Source: Helicobacter sp. 16-1353
Lineage (GTDB): Bacteria; Campylobacterota; Campylobacteria; Campylobacterales; Helicobacteraceae
Length of the DNA stretch: 64,000 bases
Assembly (NCBI RefSeq): GCF_003288815.1
Contig: NZ_NHYM01000011.1
Location: 1-64,000 of the forward strand
Direction: 5' to 3'
In this document: positions 1,872 through 53,328 of the stretch, in pieces
Numbering within the stretch: the stretch's first letter is position 1
How the letters are laid out: the number at the start of each line of letters is the position of its first letter
Notes under the pieces: model-generated
The model's input: only the letters and a program-made list of their open reading frames with translations
Database searches by the model: none
What the model was told of the DNA's origin: nothing
Made by a program: the position numbers and the translations under genes

Positions 1872-3279
1872 ATCCGCCCTAAAACCCATATTAAAACAAT
1901 GTAGAAACATAGCATTTCTAGCGATTGACCTAATAGCAAAATGTGGCAGAATCTATGGGAAAATTAAGGGGGATTCTAGGCGTTTTACAGATTCCGCAGA
2001 TTCCATAGATTCCATAGATTCCAGATTCGCCCACGATTTTATAAAACCCGGCGATTTTATTCGCCCCAAAGATTCCACACAAATCGCCATAATCAAAGTC
2101 GATGCAATCGGGGACTACATACTTTTTAGAAACTTCCTGTGCGAACTAAAATCCCATCTAGATTCCAACCTAAGTCTAATTTGCAATGAATCTTATAAGG
2201 AATTAGCATTAAAGCTAGATTCTAAAATTGTGGATAATTTCATATTTATTAGTCGCCCTAAGATGATGAGAAGCCTACTCTATCGCCTTAAAACGCTTTT
2301 CTTTTTGGAATCACTCCGCTTTGATATATTGCTAAATCCCACTTTTTCAAAATGCATTATTAGCGAGGCACTAGCAAATCATATAAACGCCGGCGAGAGC
2401 GTCGCTCCTATCGGCAACACCGCAAATCTAAGCACTAAAAATCTACTAAAAGAAAATAAAAAATACACAAAATTACTAGCCAACAAAAGCGGGAATCTCT
2501 TTGAATTTTATAGAAATATGGAGTTTTTCGAGCAGTTTTTAGGCGTAAAGCTAGATACAAAGCTCTTCATTGACTCCGCATTTTTGCCTAGCTTTGAGAT
2601 TTTACGCGATAAATTTAGCCTAATAAAGCCATATAGCATTTTATTTATCGGGGCAAGTAGCCCCAATCGCAAGTGGAGTGCGGAGAACTTCGCCAAAATG
2701 GCAAGGCATATTTTAGAGCGAAAATATAATATAGTCATTTGTGGGCTAAGTGAAGATTGCTTAAATGCAGAGAAAATCATAAATCTAGCGCAAGGGAAAT
2801 ATGCGGAATCTGGGGCGGAATCTAAAATAGAATCCACGCTAAAAATTGCCAAAGATTCTGCGATGAAATCCACGCTAAATTCTAAAACAGATTCCGCCCC
2901 GGATTCCCCCGAAACTCCCCAAATAAAAAATCTATGTGGCAAAACGACTCTATTAGAACTAGCGGGAATCGTATATAACGGAAACCACATGGTTGCTAAC
3001 GAGACAAGTGTAGCACACTTGGCAAGTGCGTTAGATACGACAAGCATTGTCGTATATAACGGAAACCACCTAAATAGATTTATCCCATATCCCAAAGAGA
3101 TATGTGATAAATACTACTATGTGCTACACCCGCAAATCGCCACAAACGCCGAGCTTTACGCCAAAATTAGCAATACCGAAAGCTACAAAAGCACATTAAA
3201 TATAGATGAAATCTCCGCAGAATCTGTAATAGCAATCTATGAGAAAGCATTAAATGGGGGGGGGGGGAACTCTATGTAA
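1855..3279 (+). CDS. GT9 (heptosyltransferase-like) glycosyltransferase with phase-variable tail
   Basis: The 474-residue product matches the GT9 layout of ADP-heptose:LPS heptosyltransferases. An N-terminal IKVDAIGDYILFRNF motif is followed by the C-domain motifs SILFIGASSPNRKWSAENF and MVANETSVAHLASAL, which form the nucleotide-sugar pocket in this family. It starts inside the preceding gene with AGGGG upstream. Residues around 35-60 and 310-345 are Ser/Asp-rich GATTC inserts. A G12 run near the end gives a short tail (GGGG-NSM, stop). In the next frame a 60-codon tail stays open to a TAG at 3447-3449, overlapping the next gene's ATG at 3440. That longer form is probably an alternative or ancestral end. 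The sugar transferred cannot be read from sequence. Confidence 0.8.
   Translation: MNLACKSALKPILKQCRNIAFLAIDLIAKCGRIYGKIKGDSRRFTDSADSIDSIDSRFAHDFIKPGDFIRPKDSTQIAIIKVDAIGDYILFRNFLCELKSHLDSNLSLICNESYKELALKLDSKIVDNFIFISRPKMMRSLLYRLKTLFFLESLRFDILLNPTFSKCIISEALANHINAGESVAPIGNTANLSTKNLLKENKKYTKLLANKSGNLFEFYRNMEFFEQFLGVKLDTKLFIDSAFLPSFEILRDKFSLIKPYSILFIGASSPNRKWSAENFAKMARHILERKYNIVICGLSEDCLNAEKIINLAQGKYAESGAESKIESTLKIAKDSAMKSTLNSKTDSAPDSPETPQIKNLCGKTTLLELAGIVYNGNHMVANETSVAHLASALDTTSIVVYNGNHLNRFIPYPKEICDKYYYVLHPQIATNAELYAKISNTESYKSTLNIDEISAESVIAIYEKALNGGGGNSM
3256..3267 (+). repeat. G12 tract selecting a short or long GT9 tail
   Basis: With G12 the protein ends four codons after the run. With G13 or G10 the reading frame continues 60 codons (3267-3446) and terminates inside the start of the downstream GT4 gene. 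Confidence 0.85.
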
Positions 3280-8719: not shown

Positions 8720-9143
8720 ATTAAGTTTTTAATTCTCCTTATAAAGCCGAATTTGTTCGCCTATGAAGTTAATACCTTAGCTTCTCGAATTTTGTTAAAA
8801 ATTCGTAGCTTTAGGGGGTTTAAATGAAGTGAGGTGAAATTTAAAAGGGGCAACACCCTTATTTCAAAACTAGTGATTCCACTATTGCCGGCGAAACTTA
8901 GTTTCGCCTCTCCCGCTTTTAGCGGGTAGCTTTAGGGGTTTCGAAAACGAGCGATGGCGAAGTTTCCTGTAAAGGGCAACGCCCTTCGTCGCAAGGACTA
9001 GCTTGGCTAGTCCGCGAAATTATACCTTAGCTTCTCGAATTTTGTTAAAAATTCGTAGCTTTAGGGGGTTTAAAGGGGCAACGCCCCTTATCGCAAAGAT
9101 GAGCTTAGCTCATCTGCGAAATTAAAATTAATAAGGAGAACAA
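8720..9143. repeat. Intergenic array of direct repeats and short-loop hairpins upstream of the TonB receptor
   Basis: No gene seen. A 52-base direct repeat occurs at 8773-8824 and 9023-9074, each copy holding an 8-base stem closed by GTTA. Between and after them are perfect hairpins with three-base loops: 8890-8908, 8912-8926, 8972-8986, 8995-9013, 9073-9089 and 9098-9114. Three imperfect composite units (roughly 8812-8890, 8929-9021, 9054-9121) share the order TTTAGGGG(G), GGGCAACGCCC-type hairpin, then a second hairpin. The ribosome site AAGGAG of the receptor gene follows directly. A regulatory role is possible but unproven. Confidence 0.8.
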
Positions 9144-11172
9144 ATGAAAAATATAAGCAAAGTTTTATCGATTATTTTATTATGGGGGGGGGGTAGCATT
9201 CGCTAAAGATTCTCAAGATTCCACAGATTCCAGCCTAGAGCAAGTCAATCTAGGCGAAGTCGAGGTCGTAGCAAAAAGAATCGATGAAAATAGAACAGTA
9301 AGCATCGTCGATGAAACCGAGATTAAAGATATGAATATGAAAGATATTGCTCAAAGTCTGCAATATACTTCAGGTGTGATTTACTCCCCTCCAGCTAGTC
9401 ATAGGGGTGAGCCTAGCTTTAGTATTCGTGGGTATGCAGGTAGGGAAACGGGGATTTTCATCGATGGGATTCCAATGTATTCTATCTATGATAAGCGGAC
9501 AGATTGGGGGCAATTCACGCTATTTGACACGGAGAGCATTTCAATTTCAAAGGGTTATACAAGTATGCTTTATGGTCCAAATACCATAGGTGGAGCGGTG
9601 AATCTCGTTACCAAAAAGCCAAAAGATAAGCTTGAAGTAGAGTTACGAGGGCAGTATCAAACGCCAAATCAACACTACGAATACGCACGAATTGGGACAA
9701 ACTTAGGGAAATTTTACGCACAATTTAGCTTCTCAAATATGCAAAGGAAATATTACCAACTTTCAAAACATTTCAAGCCCACAGCGTGGCAGAGAGATAG
9801 AAATCGTGTAGGAAGCTATTATAAAAATATGCGATTTAACCTAAAGCTAGGCTTTACACCGAATCTAACCGATGAATATAGCCTAAATCTAACCTATCAA
9901 AATGGAGATAGAGGTGGAGTGATAAACACAAAGCAAAATAGTAATATCCTACATTGGCCAAAATATGAGAAAATCACTGCTTATTTTCTATCAAATACCA
10001 AGCTAGGCGATATGGTTACGCTTACCTCAAGAATATTCTACGATACATTTGATAACGAGCTTGATGGCAAAGGGCAGCTCCTAGCAAATGGCACAATCAA
10101 CCCAACTGGAGGAATTTTTGCTGGATATTCTAGATATGATGATTGGACTTTGGGGGCGACACTTGGGTTGGGGATTGATATTAGCCCAGATGATTATCTA
10201 AAATTTAGCATTCTAGCAAAGAGCGATAATCACCTTGAAAAAGCCAACCAAATTTCATCGCCCCCAGCACAATATCCTATGTCAAAGCAAAGCGATATTA
10301 CAAGCTATATTGCTGGGGAATATACTAGAATATTCTTGGATAATCTACGAGCCTCTTTTAGCCTAAATTATACGCGAAATGATGTGATTAACGCAGAGAC
10401 TTTAGTAAATAACAACTCTCCAATCACCAAAGACCCTCTAAGAAGCTTAGGAGGCGTAGGAGCACAAGCCATACTCTACTATGACCCAATAGATAGTGTA
10501 AATCTATACGCTACCATTGGGAAAAAGGACGCCCTCCCAACGCTAATGGATAGATATGGTGCAGTGGGTGGCTCAAGACTACCAAACCCAGATTTAAAAA
10601 CCGAAACTGCCATAAACTATGAGCTAGGCTTAAGCTACTATCCAATAGATGAGCTAAGATTAAGCCTTGCTGGATTTTTCAATGATTTAACAGATATGAT
10701 TGTAACAGAGAATGTGGCAGATAGCCTTTGTGCTGCTGGAGCAAACTGCAGACGCTTAACAAATAAGCCAAATGGCAATGCGTGGGGGATAGAAGCTGAA
10801 ATCCAATATGAGCTAATCTCAACTCTAAGTATTAATGCAAACTACGCATATATTAAGAAAAAGTCCCAAGATGGAACTATTATCACAGACTATCCAAATC
10901 ATATTGCAAGTGCAAGAATCAAATATAATCCGCTAATCGATTTAGATTTAATAGCAGGAGGTAGATACACAAGCCCTAGAATCGTGAGAGTAAATAATAA
11001 CTACATAGATTCCCCAAATGTATTCTTGCTAGATATTCGAGCAGCTTATAGAATAAGTGGCTTTGAAATCGCACTAGGAATCGACAATGTAACCGATAGA
11101 AACTATTGGTATTCCTATGGCTATGAAATGGAGGGCAGAAGATACTATGTAGAATTGGGGTATAAATACTAA
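9144..11172 (+). pseudogene. TonB-dependent outer-membrane receptor, out of frame at G10 in the signal peptide (phase OFF)
   Basis: The ATG at 9144 (AAGGAG upstream) begins a signal peptide that runs into G10 (9184-9193) and stops at once. In the other frame the signal continues as VAFA followed by KDS, a good signal-peptidase I site. Then come a plug domain (about residues 50-180) with SFSIRGYAGRETGIFIDGIPM and SMLYGPNTIGGAVNLVTKKP, and a 22-strand-type barrel ending in Tyr-x-Tyr (GYKY). G9 or G12 restores a protein of about 675 residues. Such receptors import siderophore-iron, heme or similar ligands using TonB energy; the ligand is not evident. The rest of the reading frame is intact, so the gene appears switched off rather than dead. 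Confidence 0.9.
9184..9193 (+). repeat. G10 tract inside the receptor signal peptide
   Basis: With G10 translation ends about seven codons later. With G9 the reading is Leu-Trp-Gly-Gly-Val-Ala-Phe-Ala, a complete signal peptide. Confidence 0.9.
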
Positions 11173-17189: not shown

Positions 17190-18175
17190 CGTTTAGCTGC
17201 CCCCCCCCTAATCGCATTTATATCACTTGGGCTTAGGTAGCGATACTCTAGCTCCCTCGTGGCTCTTAGGATATTTTGCGTTTTATTTTTGGCGATTTGG
17301 AAGTATTTATGATTTCTCACCTCATCGATTTTGGCAAATTCATCAAGATAATCTATCACTCTACTTAAATCATCAATCTTTTTCTTTGTGGAGTTTAGGT
17401 CGATACGCCTTGTGATTGAGCCTTTATTGTCGCAGTAGATATATAGCTTATCATCAATGCCCTTTGAGCTTTTTGCCAAAGCCATAATAATAAAGCTTTT
17501 TAGGCTATCCTCCGCCATGTTAAGCCGCTCAAAATCGCCCATATGTGCCACGAGCAAGTCGCACACTCGCATAATGTGCGAAGCTTTATAAAGCTTCGCC
17601 CATATGTGCCACGGCGGTGTGGCACAATGGGCGAATACAGCTTTTAAAATCTCCTCATTTCGTAGGCTTTTAGTAAGCACGGGCGGGGTTGTCCGCTTCC
17701 AAGTGGGCGGATAATGTCGCATACCAAAAAATATAATATCCGGCTTGGAATCTGGGGAATCTATGGAATGTGGGGGTTTTGTGGAATGTGTTAAATCTTT
17801 GGGATTTTTTGGGTTAGATTCTAAGGATTCTGCAGATTCTATGGCGTCCAAACTCGCCTTATAAGCCAACTCACAAGCCTTTAAATCCAAATAATCATCG
17901 CCATCAAGGAAAAGTAAATACTCGCCTTTTGCGTTATTTATGCCTTGCAATCGTGCGTTAAAAGTGCCTAGATTCTTGGGATTATGGATAATGCGGATTC
18001 TAGAATCCCTTTTGGCGTAAGATTTGGCGATTTCTATCGAGCTATCACTCCCACAATCATCAACGACAATAATCTCAATATCGCCCAGCGTTTGATTGAT
18101 ACACGAATCCAACGCCCTTTTAATGTATCGCTCAATATTGTAGGCGGGGATTATAATGGAGATTTTAGGATTCAT
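17069..18175 (-). CDS. GT2 family glycosyltransferase with phase-variable C-terminal tail
   Basis: A GT-A fold enzyme of about 368 residues: PKISIIIPAYNIERYIKRAL at the N-terminus, IEIIVVDDCGSDSS, and the metal-binding YLLFLDGDDYLDL near residue 90. The ATG at 18175 overlaps the stop of the upstream gene (ATGA), so I use it rather than the ATG at 18190 on the other side of the G11 run. A G9 run (17200-17208) lies before the last 40 residues. The in-frame tail ends YARILAYILTLGKIKL, closely matching the tail of the GT2 gene at 49-50 kb (YLRILAYIVSFRKIKI), so the present frame gives the full-length form. The tail reads through the start of the downstream GT4 gene. Confidence 0.85.
   Translation of the reverse strand: MNPKISIIIPAYNIERYIKRALDSCINQTLGDIEIIVVDDCGSDSSIEIAKSYAKRDSRIRIIHNPKNLGTFNARLQGINNAKGEYLLFLDGDDYLDLKACELAYKASLDAIESAESLESNPKNPKDLTHSTKPPHSIDSPDSKPDIIFFGMRHYPPTWKRTTPPVLTKSLRNEEILKAVFAHCATPPWHIWAKLYKASHIMRVCDLLVAHMGDFERLNMAEDSLKSFIIMALAKSSKGIDDKLYIYCDNKGSITRRIDLNSTKKKIDDLSRVIDYLDEFAKIDEVRNHKYFQIAKNKTQNILRATRELEYRYLSPSDINAIRGGAAKRCVTLPIYLECCIKSMRYHRKWQTYARILAYILTLGKIKL
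17200..17208 (-). repeat. G9 tract before the GT2 tail
   Basis: G9 keeps the tail. G10 ends the protein at a TAA (17195-17193) four bases before the downstream ATG; G8 ends it at a TAA just after that ATG. Either would favour coupling to the next gene. Confidence 0.85.
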
Positions 18176-50189: not shown

Positions 50190-52271
50190 TCACTCAAGTC
50201 GCCATTTGACGTTGTTACTGCTTTGTAGGCTAAGAATACATAAGCGGAATCTTAGCTCATAGCCCCCCCCAGCTATTAGCACATCTATCGTATTTTGGTA
50301 GATTTTAATTGTGTTGTTTATATCAAATTTTTTGGCAAATTCCCTTGCGTTTTCCCCCAAAATGGGCTTATTTTGATGGGCGATAAAGGAATCTAGAGCA
50401 GTTTTTAGCGAGTTTGTATCGCCCACCTCACATAAAAATCCATTTATTTTATTAAGATTGCCATTGATTTCGCTTTGATTAGGGTAGTTTCGCACGAGCT
50501 CCTTACAGCCAATCGCATTTGTGGTGATTATTGGCGTTTCCATCGCCATAGATTCTAGTAGGCTAATCGCCACGCCCTCCCTATAGCTAGGCAAAACTAC
50601 GGCGGAGGCAAGTTTTATAAACTCCCTTACATCGCTTGTTTCACCTAGATAGCTCACAGCCCCGCTATTATGCCACTTTTGGAGAGTTTCGGCTGGGATT
50701 GCTTGTGGATTTTTCGCATCACTTTTGCCTAGTAGGTAGAATCTTATTCTATAATATCTCTGCCCCCCCCCTATGCGAGATTTTTCGCTATTAGCAGATT
50801 CTCTCTCAAACATTTTTGCCACCTCGACAAACTCGCCCACGCCCTTATCCCAGAGCATTCTAGCAATAAGCAAGAATCTGATCTCGCCATCTTTTGGGGG
50901 ATTATTTAGGTATTCCTCTTGGGCTTGATTTTGTGGCTTGAAATCACTTTTTGGCTTGAAATCCGCCCTAAAATGCTCCAAATCCACGCCCTCACTAGGC
51001 AAAATAAAGCTTTTACTTGGCTCTATGATTTTGGATTTTATAAACTCCTCCCTATCATCTTTATTTAAAAACCACACTTCATTTGTGCCTTTAAGTGCGT
51101 GTTTATAGAGCCAAACAACGATATTTTTTAGGATTTTTTTGAAAATCCCACTTGGGATAAACACATAGCCAAGCCCCGTAGTTACGGCGATATTTGGGAT
51201 TTTTAGGCGATTTGCAATAAATGAGCCATAAATCACGGGCTTAATGGTGTAGCTAAAAATTAGATTTGGGCGGATTTGGCGTATCATCGCCCTTAGAGAG
51301 CGGAAAAATCGCAAATCTTTAAGCGGATTTAAGCTCTTTGGGTCGATAAAAATATCATAGAGCATAAAGCCCTCGTTTTTGAGATTTTCTGCACTTGCGT
51401 CAAATGGGGCGATAATGTGGATTTCATAGCCGCTTTTTGCGATATTTTGCAACGCTTTTAAGCGGAAATTCCACATACCAAAGCAAGAATTGGAGATAAA
51501 AAGGATTTTTGGCTTAGAATCGTGCGTGGAATCCGGGGAATCTGCATTTATAGAATCTTGTGTGGAATCTGTGGAATCTTTTGAGCGGACGGAATCTAGA
51601 TTCGCGAAATTTGGATTTTTCAAATTTTTCTGTGTGGGCTGTGTGGCTTGTGTTGCTTTTGTAGATTCCGTAATTTGTGGGCTTTTAAGCTGGGCGGAAA
51701 TCTTTTTATGATAGATATTTATAATAATATTTTGGTCGTATTTTTTTGCCTCATTTAGGGCAGATTCTGCCATTTTAGCTGTATTTGTTTGCATAAATCT
51801 AACGATAGAGTTATAAAGTGCCTTAATGCTATTTGGGGCGATTAGAAAGCCATTTTCGCCTATAATAACGCTAGAATCTTGGGAATCTTTAGAATCTTGC
51901 GTAATTTTCAAGTGGGTGGAATCGTGGGAATCCGGCGAATCTTTGGAATCCAAATCTCCCTCTAAATCCCCCGAAATAGTGATTAAATCTCTGCACCCGC
52001 TCATATCTGTCGTAATTATGGGCTTTCCCATAGCAAGTGCTTCTAGTAAAACCCTAGGAACACCCTCTTTATAAAAGCTAGGCAAAACTACGGCGGAGGC
52101 AAGTTTTATAAACTCCCTTACATCATTGCTCTCGCCTAGATAGCTAATAGCCCCGCTATTATGCCATTTTTGGAGTGTGTCAAGGGGGATTGATTTTGGA
52201 TTTTTATTATCGTTTTTGCCTAGCAGATAAAATCTCGGCTTTAAATCCAAATTTATATTTTGCGGAGTCAT
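50190..52271 (-). CDS. GT4 C-terminal half fused to a complete GT4, with two poly-G tracts
   Basis: A 693-residue protein. Residues 1-~205 are only the donor-binding half of a GT4 (RFYLLGKNDNKNP, DVREFIKLASAVVLPSFYKEG). A Ser/Asp/Gln linker rich in GATTC follows. Residues ~255-670 are a complete PglA-like GT4 (KILFISNSCFGMWNFRLKAL ... IRFYLLGKSDAKNP ... DVREFIKLASAVVLPSYREGVAISLLESMAM). A G9 run (50763-50771) sits at the hinge between the two Rossmann halves of the full copy, the same point at which the N-terminal half copy begins. A G8 run (50263-50270) precedes a GGGYELRF tail. Both are in frame. The two halves share a 49-base exact repeat. Confidence 0.8.
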   Translation of the reverse strand: MTPQNINLDLKPRFYLLGKNDNKNPKSIPLDTLQKWHNSGAISYLGESNDVREFIKLASAVVLPSFYKEGVPRVLLEALAMGKPIITTDMSGCRDLITISGDLEGDLDSKDSPDSHDSTHLKITQDSKDSQDSSVIIGENGFLIAPNSIKALYNSIVRFMQTNTAKMAESALNEAKKYDQNIIINIYHKKISAQLKSPQITESTKATQATQPTQKNLKNPNFANLDSVRSKDSTDSTQDSINADSPDSTHDSKPKILFISNSCFGMWNFRLKALQNIAKSGYEIHIIAPFDASAENLKNEGFMLYDIFIDPKSLNPLKDLRFFRSLRAMIRQIRPNLIFSYTIKPVIYGSFIANRLKIPNIAVTTGLGYVFIPSGIFKKILKNIVVWLYKHALKGTNEVWFLNKDDREEFIKSKIIEPSKSFILPSEGVDLEHFRADFKPKSDFKPQNQAQEEYLNNPPKDGEIRFLLIARMLWDKGVGEFVEVAKMFERESANSEKSRIGGGQRYYRIRFYLLGKSDAKNPQAIPAETLQKWHNSGAVSYLGETSDVREFIKLASAVVLPSYREGVAISLLESMAMETPIITTNAIGCKELVRNYPNQSEINGNLNKINGFLCEVGDTNSLKTALDSFIAHQNKPILGENAREFAKKFDINNTIKIYQNTIDVLIAGGGYELRFRLCILSLQSSNNVKWRLE
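50263..50270 (-). repeat. G8 tract before the C-terminal tail
   Basis: In frame; followed by YELRFRLCILSL, a tail motif also found after the G10 tract at 1683. Confidence 0.85.
50585..50633. repeat. 49-base exact direct repeat, copy 1
   Basis: Identical to 52076-52124 and lies in the homologous donor-binding half; similarity continues with mismatches for about 100 further bases. Recombination would delete about 1.5 kb and fuse the modules. Confidence 0.85.
50763..50771 (-). repeat. G9 tract at the GT-B interdomain hinge
   Basis: In frame between the acceptor and donor halves of the GT4. Slippage would leave a half GT4 plus a separate N-terminal domain. Confidence 0.88.
52076..52124. repeat. 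49-base exact direct repeat, copy 2
   Basis: Second copy of the 50585-50633 repeat, in the N-terminal half-module of the same gene. Confidence 0.85.
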
Positions 52272-52386
52272 ATTTTGACTTTTCTTAAGCGATAATTGGA
52301 GCTAGAAAAAAGCGGGTTAAATGGATAAAAGAGATTAAAAAATAGTAAATTTAAAGTGTAGTTGAAATGCGATAAAAGGCTAGAAT

Positions 52387-53328
52387 CTAGCTGTCCCCCC
52401 CCCCAATCATATATTTAATATATGCAAAAACATTGATTTCTTTTAGTTTTCTAAGCGGTTTTAGGAGAATAAAAAGAGGCGAGATTTGCATGTCATTTTC
52501 CCGCCACGCACGGAGGCATTCCACATTTGCCTTATAGATATTTTTTAGGTTTTGATTGGAGATTCCACCTAATTGCATTTTTATAAAATTTTCATCGATA
52601 TACATATTGTTTATTTTATTTTTTGCTAAAAATCGTAGCATCAGCTCATAATCCCCAGCGATTTTATAGCTTGGATTAAATCCGCCAAATTTCTCAAAAA
52701 TCTCTTTTTTTACATAAAATGTCGGGTGGGCGGGGTGTAAGCCCTTTTTAAAATCGCTAAAATTTAGATTTTGACCCTTAATTTGGCGGAGAATCTTGGG
52801 AGATTTTGTGGAATCTTGGGAGATTTGGAAACTTGTAAGATTCGCCGAATCTAGATTCTTGGAATTCGTAGAATCTATAGTTTCCGCCAAACCCCCCACA
52901 TTTACACAATCCACATACTCCAAATTCGCACATATGGATTCCACGCTTTTTGCCACTGGCTTATTAAACGCCCAATTTATAAGGCTTAAAATATTAGAAC
53001 TTGCAAAATAATCATCAGAGTTTAAAAATCCTAGCAAATCCCCGCTAGACGCGTTAATCCCGCGGTTAAATGCCTCATAGATTCCGCTATCTTTTTGGCT
53101 AAAAATTTTTAGGGTGATATTTTTTGCCTCATATTTTGGGCGATAAGATTGAATGATTTCTAGGGTCAAATCGCTACTTTTGCCATCGATTATAATATGC
53201 TCGATATTATTATAATCTTGGCTAAGCACGGATTCTAGGGTGTTTTTTATGGTTGGCTCTGAGTTTAGCGTAGCTGTGATTATGGAGATTTTATAATTAT
53301 TTATACTTATTTTTTTCAAAATTCTCAA
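52387..53328 (-). CDS. GT2 family glycosyltransferase (WcaA/WcaE type) with phase-variable tail
   Basis: A 313-residue GT-A enzyme: KISIITATLNSEPTIKNTLES, HIIIDGKSSDLTLEII, FSQKDSGIYEAFNRGI and LLGFLNSDDYFAS (metal site), with C-terminal HPAHPTFYVKKEIF and SYKIAGDYELMLRFL. As read, a G10 run ends it at GGGDS. In the next frame (G11 or G8) it continues for about 41 hydrophobic codons and ends at a TGA that overlaps the ATG of the downstream GT4 gene (ATGA, 52271-52268). The longer form therefore looks like the native, coupled one. An Asp/Ser insert (~155-185) carries GATTC words. Start is TTG. Confidence 0.82.
   Translation of the reverse strand: MRILKKISINNYKISIITATLNSEPTIKNTLESVLSQDYNNIEHIIIDGKSSDLTLEIIQSYRPKYEAKNITLKIFSQKDSGIYEAFNRGINASSGDLLGFLNSDDYFASSNILSLINWAFNKPVAKSVESICANLEYVDCVNVGGLAETIDSTNSKNLDSANLTSFQISQDSTKSPKILRQIKGQNLNFSDFKKGLHPAHPTFYVKKEIFEKFGGFNPSYKIAGDYELMLRFLAKNKINNMYIDENFIKMQLGGISNQNLKNIYKANVECLRAWRENDMQISPLFILLKPLRKLKEINVFAYIKYMIGGGDS
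52395..52404 (-). repeat. G10 tract selecting a short or long GT2 tail
   Basis: G10 gives a stop three codons later. G11 or G8 gives a 41-codon tail terminating in the start codon of the next gene. Confidence 0.88.

Follow-up and report, generated by a model that had tools for sequence, protein, structure and literature searches.

The subject of this analysis is a pair of adjacent glycosyltransferase genes on the minus strand of a stretch of 64,000 nucleotides (nt) from Helicobacter sp. 16-1353 (contig NZ_NHYM01000011.1, positions 1 to 64,000; hereafter the window), in which a GT2 gene ends in a homopolymeric G run and is followed by a large GT4-type open reading frame (ORF). In the GT4-type protein, C1 and C2 denote two donor-side (C-terminal) GT4 halves and N the acceptor-side (N-terminal) half, and the features of the locus are as follows:

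52387-53328, minus strand: GT2 glycosyltransferase gene, 313 amino acids (aa) in the G10 frame as sequenced (PF00535, E 7e-23)
52395-52404, minus strand: G10 run at the natural 3' end of the GT2 gene (candidate switch 1)
52379-52391, minus strand: near-palindrome GCTAGATTCTAGC a little 3' of the G10 run, scored as a weak terminator-like site
52268-52394, minus strand: tail of 41 codons, open in the G11/G8 frame only and ending in TGA, with a C/G ratio of 3.0
52268-52271, minus strand: ATGA overlap, formed by the tail-frame stop and the start of the next gene
50190-52271, minus strand: GT4-type ORF, 693 aa, in the order C1-N-[G9]-C2
51711-52238, minus strand: C1, first donor-side half, with the motif EGVPRVLLE
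50805-51512, minus strand: N, acceptor-side half, ending ARMLWDKGVGEFVEVAKM
50763-50771, minus strand: G9 run at the N|C2 junction, in frame as sequenced (candidate switch 2)
50289-50744, minus strand: C2, second donor-side half, with the motif EGVAISLLE

The conserved part of the GT2 protein closes at YMI, immediately 5' of the G10 run. At the sequenced length the protein terminates as MIGGGDS, with the stop codon 8 nt past the run, while at G9 or G12 the stop lies 15 nt past it, and the near-palindrome GCTAGATTCTAGC contains both of these stops (ending at 52387 and 52380, respectively). With G11 or G8, 41 codons (QLDSSLL...RKVKI) are open up to a TGA at 52268-52270, which overlaps the next ATG (52269-52271) by 4 nt, measured from the first base of the ATG through the last base of the TGA, so that the overlap is absent at the sequenced G10 length and present in the G11/G8 frame. 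An earlier note on this DNA had described both the immediate end of the protein at G10 and the 41-codon alternative tail, and in both respects it proved exact. It had also called the tail hydrophobic, which holds only in part: F, L, S, P and Y make up 63% of the peptide, but its grand average of hydropathy (GRAVY) is only 0.06, and the hydrophobic look arises largely because pyrimidine-rich DNA encodes such codons. G8 octamers are matched 50 times in the window, against 0.88 expected. Taken alone, the layout in the window is only suggestive when set against chance, as 7.4% of dinucleotide shuffles of the spacer contain a frame with a stop that overlaps the start by 1-11 nt, and 1.1% combine such an overlap with prompt stops in both other frames. 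Chance is excluded because the same layout recurs in related loci, and not from the window locus by itself.

These loci were collected by searching 121 genomes of the family, sampled at one genome per species, with the C1-N part of the window protein, whereby 51 genomes matched at E 1e-20. The locus set consists of the 31 best-scoring loci of these 51 genomes, the window's own genome included, and the other 20 genomes lie outside it (genomes are denoted by G and three digits, loci by L and three digits). A G run lies 91-366 nt 5' of the start of the orthologous next gene in 18 of the 31 loci, and at all 18 exactly one of the three frames can be read from the run without interruption up to a stop overlapping this start, by 4 nt in eight loci, 8 nt in four, 10 nt in three and 11 nt in three. 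Homologues with a closed tail frame were looked for and none was found (0/18), so that the repeated design of tract, tail and overlap proposed in the earlier note is supported and widened to other species. Twelve of the 18 tract loci have this GT2 or an ortholog of it upstream (the other 11 at 43-61% identity), and in 12/12 of these both non-coupling frames stop within 7 codons, which in combination with the overlap is reproduced by 0.4-2.6% of the shuffles at each locus. Run lengths vary between species from G9 to G13, and the sequenced phase is the coupling frame in 7/18 runs, near one third. Spacer lengths differ by multiples of three between G129 and G130 (100 and 139 nt) and among G106, G107 and G103 (300, 315 and 315 nt), and are 120, 120 and 119 nt in G025, G035 and G102. 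In two of the three pairs that can be formed among the latter, third positions of the tail frame account for 9/15 and 10/16 of the differences. The same layout is also found elsewhere in the window, namely at 1683 and at 3256 (the 'GT9 case' of the earlier note), and hence at 3 of the 19 window G runs of at least 8:

1683-1692 and 3256-3267, plus strand: further G runs with tails of 59-60 codons, the stop overlapping the next ATG by 17 and 10 nt, respectively

Another window run, at 17200-17208 on the minus strand, lies in a GT2b-like gene whose sequenced product ends ..LGKIKL; there, G11 opens 6 codons and leads to a stop that overlaps the following 674-aa ORF by 8 nt.

The reading that is considered likely is that the run is a phase-variable switch of the downstream GT4-type gene, acting through translational coupling, with a possible contribution of Rho. 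The GT2 protein would be made whole in every tract phase, because the G run sits after the last conserved GT2 codon, and slippage of the run would set the onward route of the ribosomes. In two frames a stop only a few codons on would release them, whereas in the third they would translate a filler tail, of which the one requirement would be that it stays open, and would terminate on top of the next start codon, from where re-initiation would be possible. Rho binds C-rich, G-poor RNA when ribosomes leave it uncovered, and an early exit would leave ~90-370 nt of such RNA bare, so that Rho may end transcription there and could sharpen the OFF state. By way of the downstream enzyme, the surface glycan may be affected as well.

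Several observations weigh against this coupling switch. The start of the window GT4 has almost no Shine-Dalgarno pairing (-0.6 kcal/mol, the weakest of 18), but usable Shine-Dalgarno sequences are found at other loci (-9.5 to -10.2 in G127, G129 and G130), and over all 18 starts their strength shows no difference from that of other genes (p 0.58), so that some of the GT4 starts could work alone. Shine-Dalgarno strength was consequently rejected as a proof of coupling, being unsupportive over the 18-start set. The tail RNA around the run folds no better than shuffles (fold z +0.61). Overlapping starts are common in operons, and a mechanical survey, which found the layout at 42 of 80 G runs preceded by at least 150 open codons, gives a rough count, as its rule admitted TTG starts and mechanical ORFs. 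Shuffled spacers match the overlap layout with p values of 0 to 0.31 per locus in the 18 loci, in a test for which, as for the one that includes the two prompt stops, the starts were picked after the overlaps were known, which biases each locus slightly toward the result; moreover, loci within one genus are related and not independent, and for both of these reasons the p values were not multiplied. Lastly, in the third of the pairs mentioned above, G025/G102, the differences number 1, 5 and 5 by codon position (5/11 at the third), and from this pair any peptide constraint on the tails would appear weak.

The usable ribosome sites leave room for polarity alone, according to which an early stop would expose a Rho site and remove the downstream message, while GT4 would be translated from a ribosome site of its own. 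The composition of the tails fits such a scheme, since they are C-rich and G-poor, with a mean C/G ratio of 2.24 over the 18 loci, compared with 1.16 in the upstream and 1.04 in the downstream sequence; in the 12 loci with internal N|C2 runs, the ratio past these runs is 0.82. The tail RNA, which by the fold score above is little structured, agrees with the scheme too. A rho gene is present, and the accessible text of a study on Bifidobacterium pili argues for a polar effect of an intragenic G run (PMC9187656). However, polarity needs no stop within 4-11 nt of the next start, yet 18/18 loci have one, and the window start is nearly devoid of a Shine-Dalgarno sequence. As to whether the next gene has a strong ribosome site and promoter of its own, which the earlier note had raised as a point against coupling, the answer is thus divided: the window start is weak, and a promoter scan (4 found, 5.4 expected) gave no minus-strand hit in the interval from run to start, but several other loci have the usable sites noted above. 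Polarity as the sole mechanism is therefore regarded as possible, though doubtful.

It could also be argued that the tail is the true C-terminus of GT2, that the run is a conventional ON/OFF tract close to where the gene stops, and that the overlap reflects normal operon packing. The tail frame stays open over a considerable length, and it looks partly protein-coding in G025, G035 and G102. Nevertheless, the alignment of the GT2 proteins of the 12 loci ends between 15 nt inside the run and 38 nt before its start, and tract-less GT2 relatives (L009, L016-L020 and L039) end near the same point and lack the tail altogether (7/7). In one of these seven, from G003 of the same genus, the GT2 gene has neither a run nor a downstream GT4 and is followed by an opposite-strand gene that is ankyrin-like on a reading of its translation. 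The tail peptides range from 30 to 122 aa and are visibly unlike between lineages, meaning that frame and overlap are kept and the peptide is not, and the purine content of the tail DNA is below that of both flanks in 18/18 loci (mean 0.41, against 0.50 and 0.52). On these alignments and compositions the tail is not part of GT2, and the view that it forms the C-terminus of the enzyme is considered unlikely. As a separate observation, the window GT2 carries an Asp-Ser-rich insert (residues ~142-177) that is unmatched in its GT2 relatives.

Two further sets of loci bear on the same alternative. Tight overlap is usual here even without a tract: in 9/9 tract-less loci with GT2b upstream (mostly ending ..GKIKL), the stop is placed at -4 to +24 nt relative to the GT4 start, where G033 and G133 are counted with their second ATG, as the first would overlap by 61 nt. 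At the remaining four tract-less loci the upstream genes are of different kinds; two of them end 3 nt before the start and two ~90-110 nt before it. Because all nine tract-less GT2b loci are tightly spaced, the tight coupling of the GT4 start probably predates the tract, and where a run intervenes, coupling seems to have been retained in one phase only. In six tract-bearing loci of the GT2b type (L045, L076, L078, L079, L083 and L089) the run lies inside GT2b and coding continues past it, as a true C-terminus would have it; the GT2b frame, however, differs from the coupling frame, and both are open over long stretches. The sequenced phase is that of GT2b at three of the six and that of coupling at the other three, and these loci thus have the appearance of an either/or switch.

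A third alternative takes the G run as the landing site for a RepG-type C/U-rich small RNA, with the frame being irrelevant. According to the accessible text on the tlpB-hp0102 operon, RepG of H. pylori pairs with a leader G run and tunes the downstream glycosyltransferase hp0102 (PMC8295292). This would not predict the conserved frame and overlap in 18/18 loci, and is considered very improbable.

The gene on which the proposed switch would act has a domain order of its own. The earlier note had called it a tandem GT4, of which the GT4-type assignment stands, while a plain tandem was rejected: the first 190 aa are a C-half, followed by the N-half, the G9 run and another C-half. Thus, the usual GT4 order (Glyco_trans_4-type N, then Glycos_transf_1 C) is not found, despite the presence of both domains. 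The C-half precedes the N-half in 30/31 loci, and C1 and N share one open frame in 29/31, with G015 being frameshifted and G016 having the normal N-C order; 17/31 loci are C-N without a C2 match and 13/31, including the window, are C-N-C. Intact C-N proteins with neither C2 nor a run after N measure 382-432 aa. Matched to PglA of Campylobacter concisus (PDB 8dqd), the G034 protein aligns in swapped order, with residues 173-391 on 4-221 and residues 28-150 on 248-362. Likewise, Pfam C-domain models precede N-domain models in 9/9 scanned C-N proteins, with the normal order in G016, and in the window protein the C domain lies both before and after N. In an alignment of 15 C-N proteins, in which the 14 others are 48-58% identical to G034, the glutamates of the E-x7-E motif (E58 and E66) are invariant in 15/15, and the motif is present in both C1 and C2 of the window. 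Because of the swapped PglA order, the Pfam order and the kept glutamates, the downstream protein is, on sequence comparison, a natural circular permutant of a PglA-like enzyme, and the C-N-C arrangement is what an intermediate in permutation by duplication would be expected to look like. Outside family f1, in an order-wide sample of 298 genomes, those pairs of halves among the matches listed that were judged by eye all ran N then C. A decayed fragment was rejected as well, since the frame is uninterrupted across C1 and N at 29/31 loci and the catalytic motif has been preserved. It is accordingly hardly credible that an AT-rich gap is open by luck beside a misplaced start of a decayed GT4, even though shuffles yield the overlap at the window locus at the rate given above and the first 190 aa of the next ORF, on their own, resemble a GT4 fragment, as the layout recurs in 18/18 loci and the C-before-N order, with its catalytic motif, in 30/31.

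A single-sequence AlphaFold2 model of the window C1-N part had a mean predicted local distance difference test (pLDDT) score of 31.9 and was discarded. The sole locus with the normal N-C order, L044 of G016 (8814-9989), stands beside the same arrangement of GT2, run and tail; its order could be a return to normal through loss of C1. Asp-Ser-rich linkers built from repeated GATTC words were observed on the minus strand of the window at 51500-51960 (GT4) and 52780-52900 (GT2).

The C-N-C forms have a G run of their own. At the N|C2 junction a run of at least 8 G is found in 12/13 C-N-C loci (G107 has G6), and at the window run (50763-50771) any length other than in-frame leads to a stop within 4-6 codons, so that out-of-frame lengths would leave a C-N enzyme and in-frame lengths would add C2. 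Besides the window, these junction runs are located in L041, L042, L045, L077-L082, L090 and L099. In the window, C1 and C2 are 53.7% identical over 134 aa at the protein level. The donor-loop motif of C1 is EGxPR in 28/30 cases, whereas the arginine at this position is found in 1/11 readable C2 halves (G035), the C2 loop being mostly EG[VM][S/A/P][V/I/M]; three further C2 matches were too short for this count, and the only C-half of G016 was counted as C2. This loop position corresponds to PglA residue 282, a valine in the deposited chain 8dvz, as counted on the alignment of G034 with PglA. The difference between the C1 and C2 loops suggests that the junction run may be a second switch, of sugar specificity. 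The neighboring residue Pro281 of PglA has reportedly been tied to sugar choice in the paper on its structure.

At the DNA level, C1 and C2 of the same genome are 78-93% identical over ~155-240 nt ending near the donor motif in 9/10 genomes; in G014 the match extends over 430 nt, yet the donor motif differs. The two halves are alike up to approximately the donor-sugar motif and mostly diverged beyond it (e.g., L042 and L045), a pattern pointing to repeated gene conversion. Because the match ends near the motif, the halves seem to exchange sequence with the donor loop staying different, to which C2 of G035 is likely an exception. C2 was not recovered as one clade, as the tree needs four changes for the C2 rows, with weak deep support. 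It is proposed only tentatively that two G runs slip in series, the first turning the enzyme on or off via a disposable tail and the second combining the N-half with C1 or C2, so that the donor sugar would be swapped. A third run, G8, lies at 50263-50270 on the minus strand, where 24 codons of the permuted GT4 ORF remain; it is followed by a sequence (YELRF..IL) similar to the one that follows the run at 1683.

Several known systems share features with this arrangement. In the homopolymeric G/C contingency loci of Campylobacter, Helicobacter and Neisseria glycosyltransferase genes, as here, the frame of a G run in a surface-glycan gene sets the output. The present run, in contrast, lies past the conserved end of its gene, so that no effect on this gene is expected and the target is proposed to be the one that follows. 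In the pilus clusters of Bifidobacterium breve, for which the accessible text proposes uncoupling and polarity, a run in the first gene likewise sets the genes behind it (PMC9187656); there, the run fuses or splits one protein, whereas here a filler tail with its stop on the next start would join two enzymes. The RepG system, as far as the accessible text describes it, similarly has a variable G run controlling a glycosyltransferase in a bicistronic message, but the run is in the leader and control is graded and mediated by a small RNA, and the authors argue against direct coupling (PMC8295292). Translational coupling by overlap of stop and start is classed apart from phase variation in the accessible text on GeneTack (PMC3711429); the stop overlaps or adjoins the next start there as it does here, with the difference that the coupling stop of the present loci exists in one of three phases. 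Both halves of PglA of C. concisus, a GT4 enzyme of the GT-B fold (PDB 8dqd), are matched by the downstream enzyme (G034 protein), although in the Helicobacteraceae proteins the halves are reversed and some have a second C-half. In the open-licence literature of PubMed Central, with subscription papers outside the scope, neither a GT4 with a naturally permuted order nor a coupling tail subject to phase variation was found described.

If the proposed coupling switch is true, phase variation would switch a neighboring gene while leaving both proteins untouched, by means of a slippery run placed after the stop-ready end of one gene and a sacrificial frame leading into the next. In automatic annotation, such a run would be taken for a frameshift or for the place where a gene stops, and the connection between the two genes would go unnoticed. 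As for the downstream protein, it has the look of a naturally permuted glycosyltransferase that is widespread, and its C1-N-C2 forms represent a candidate phase-variable choice between two donor-sugar domains. Phase variation may then pick both whether a sugar is added and which one, which would bear on the surface-glycan variation of intestinal Helicobacter species.

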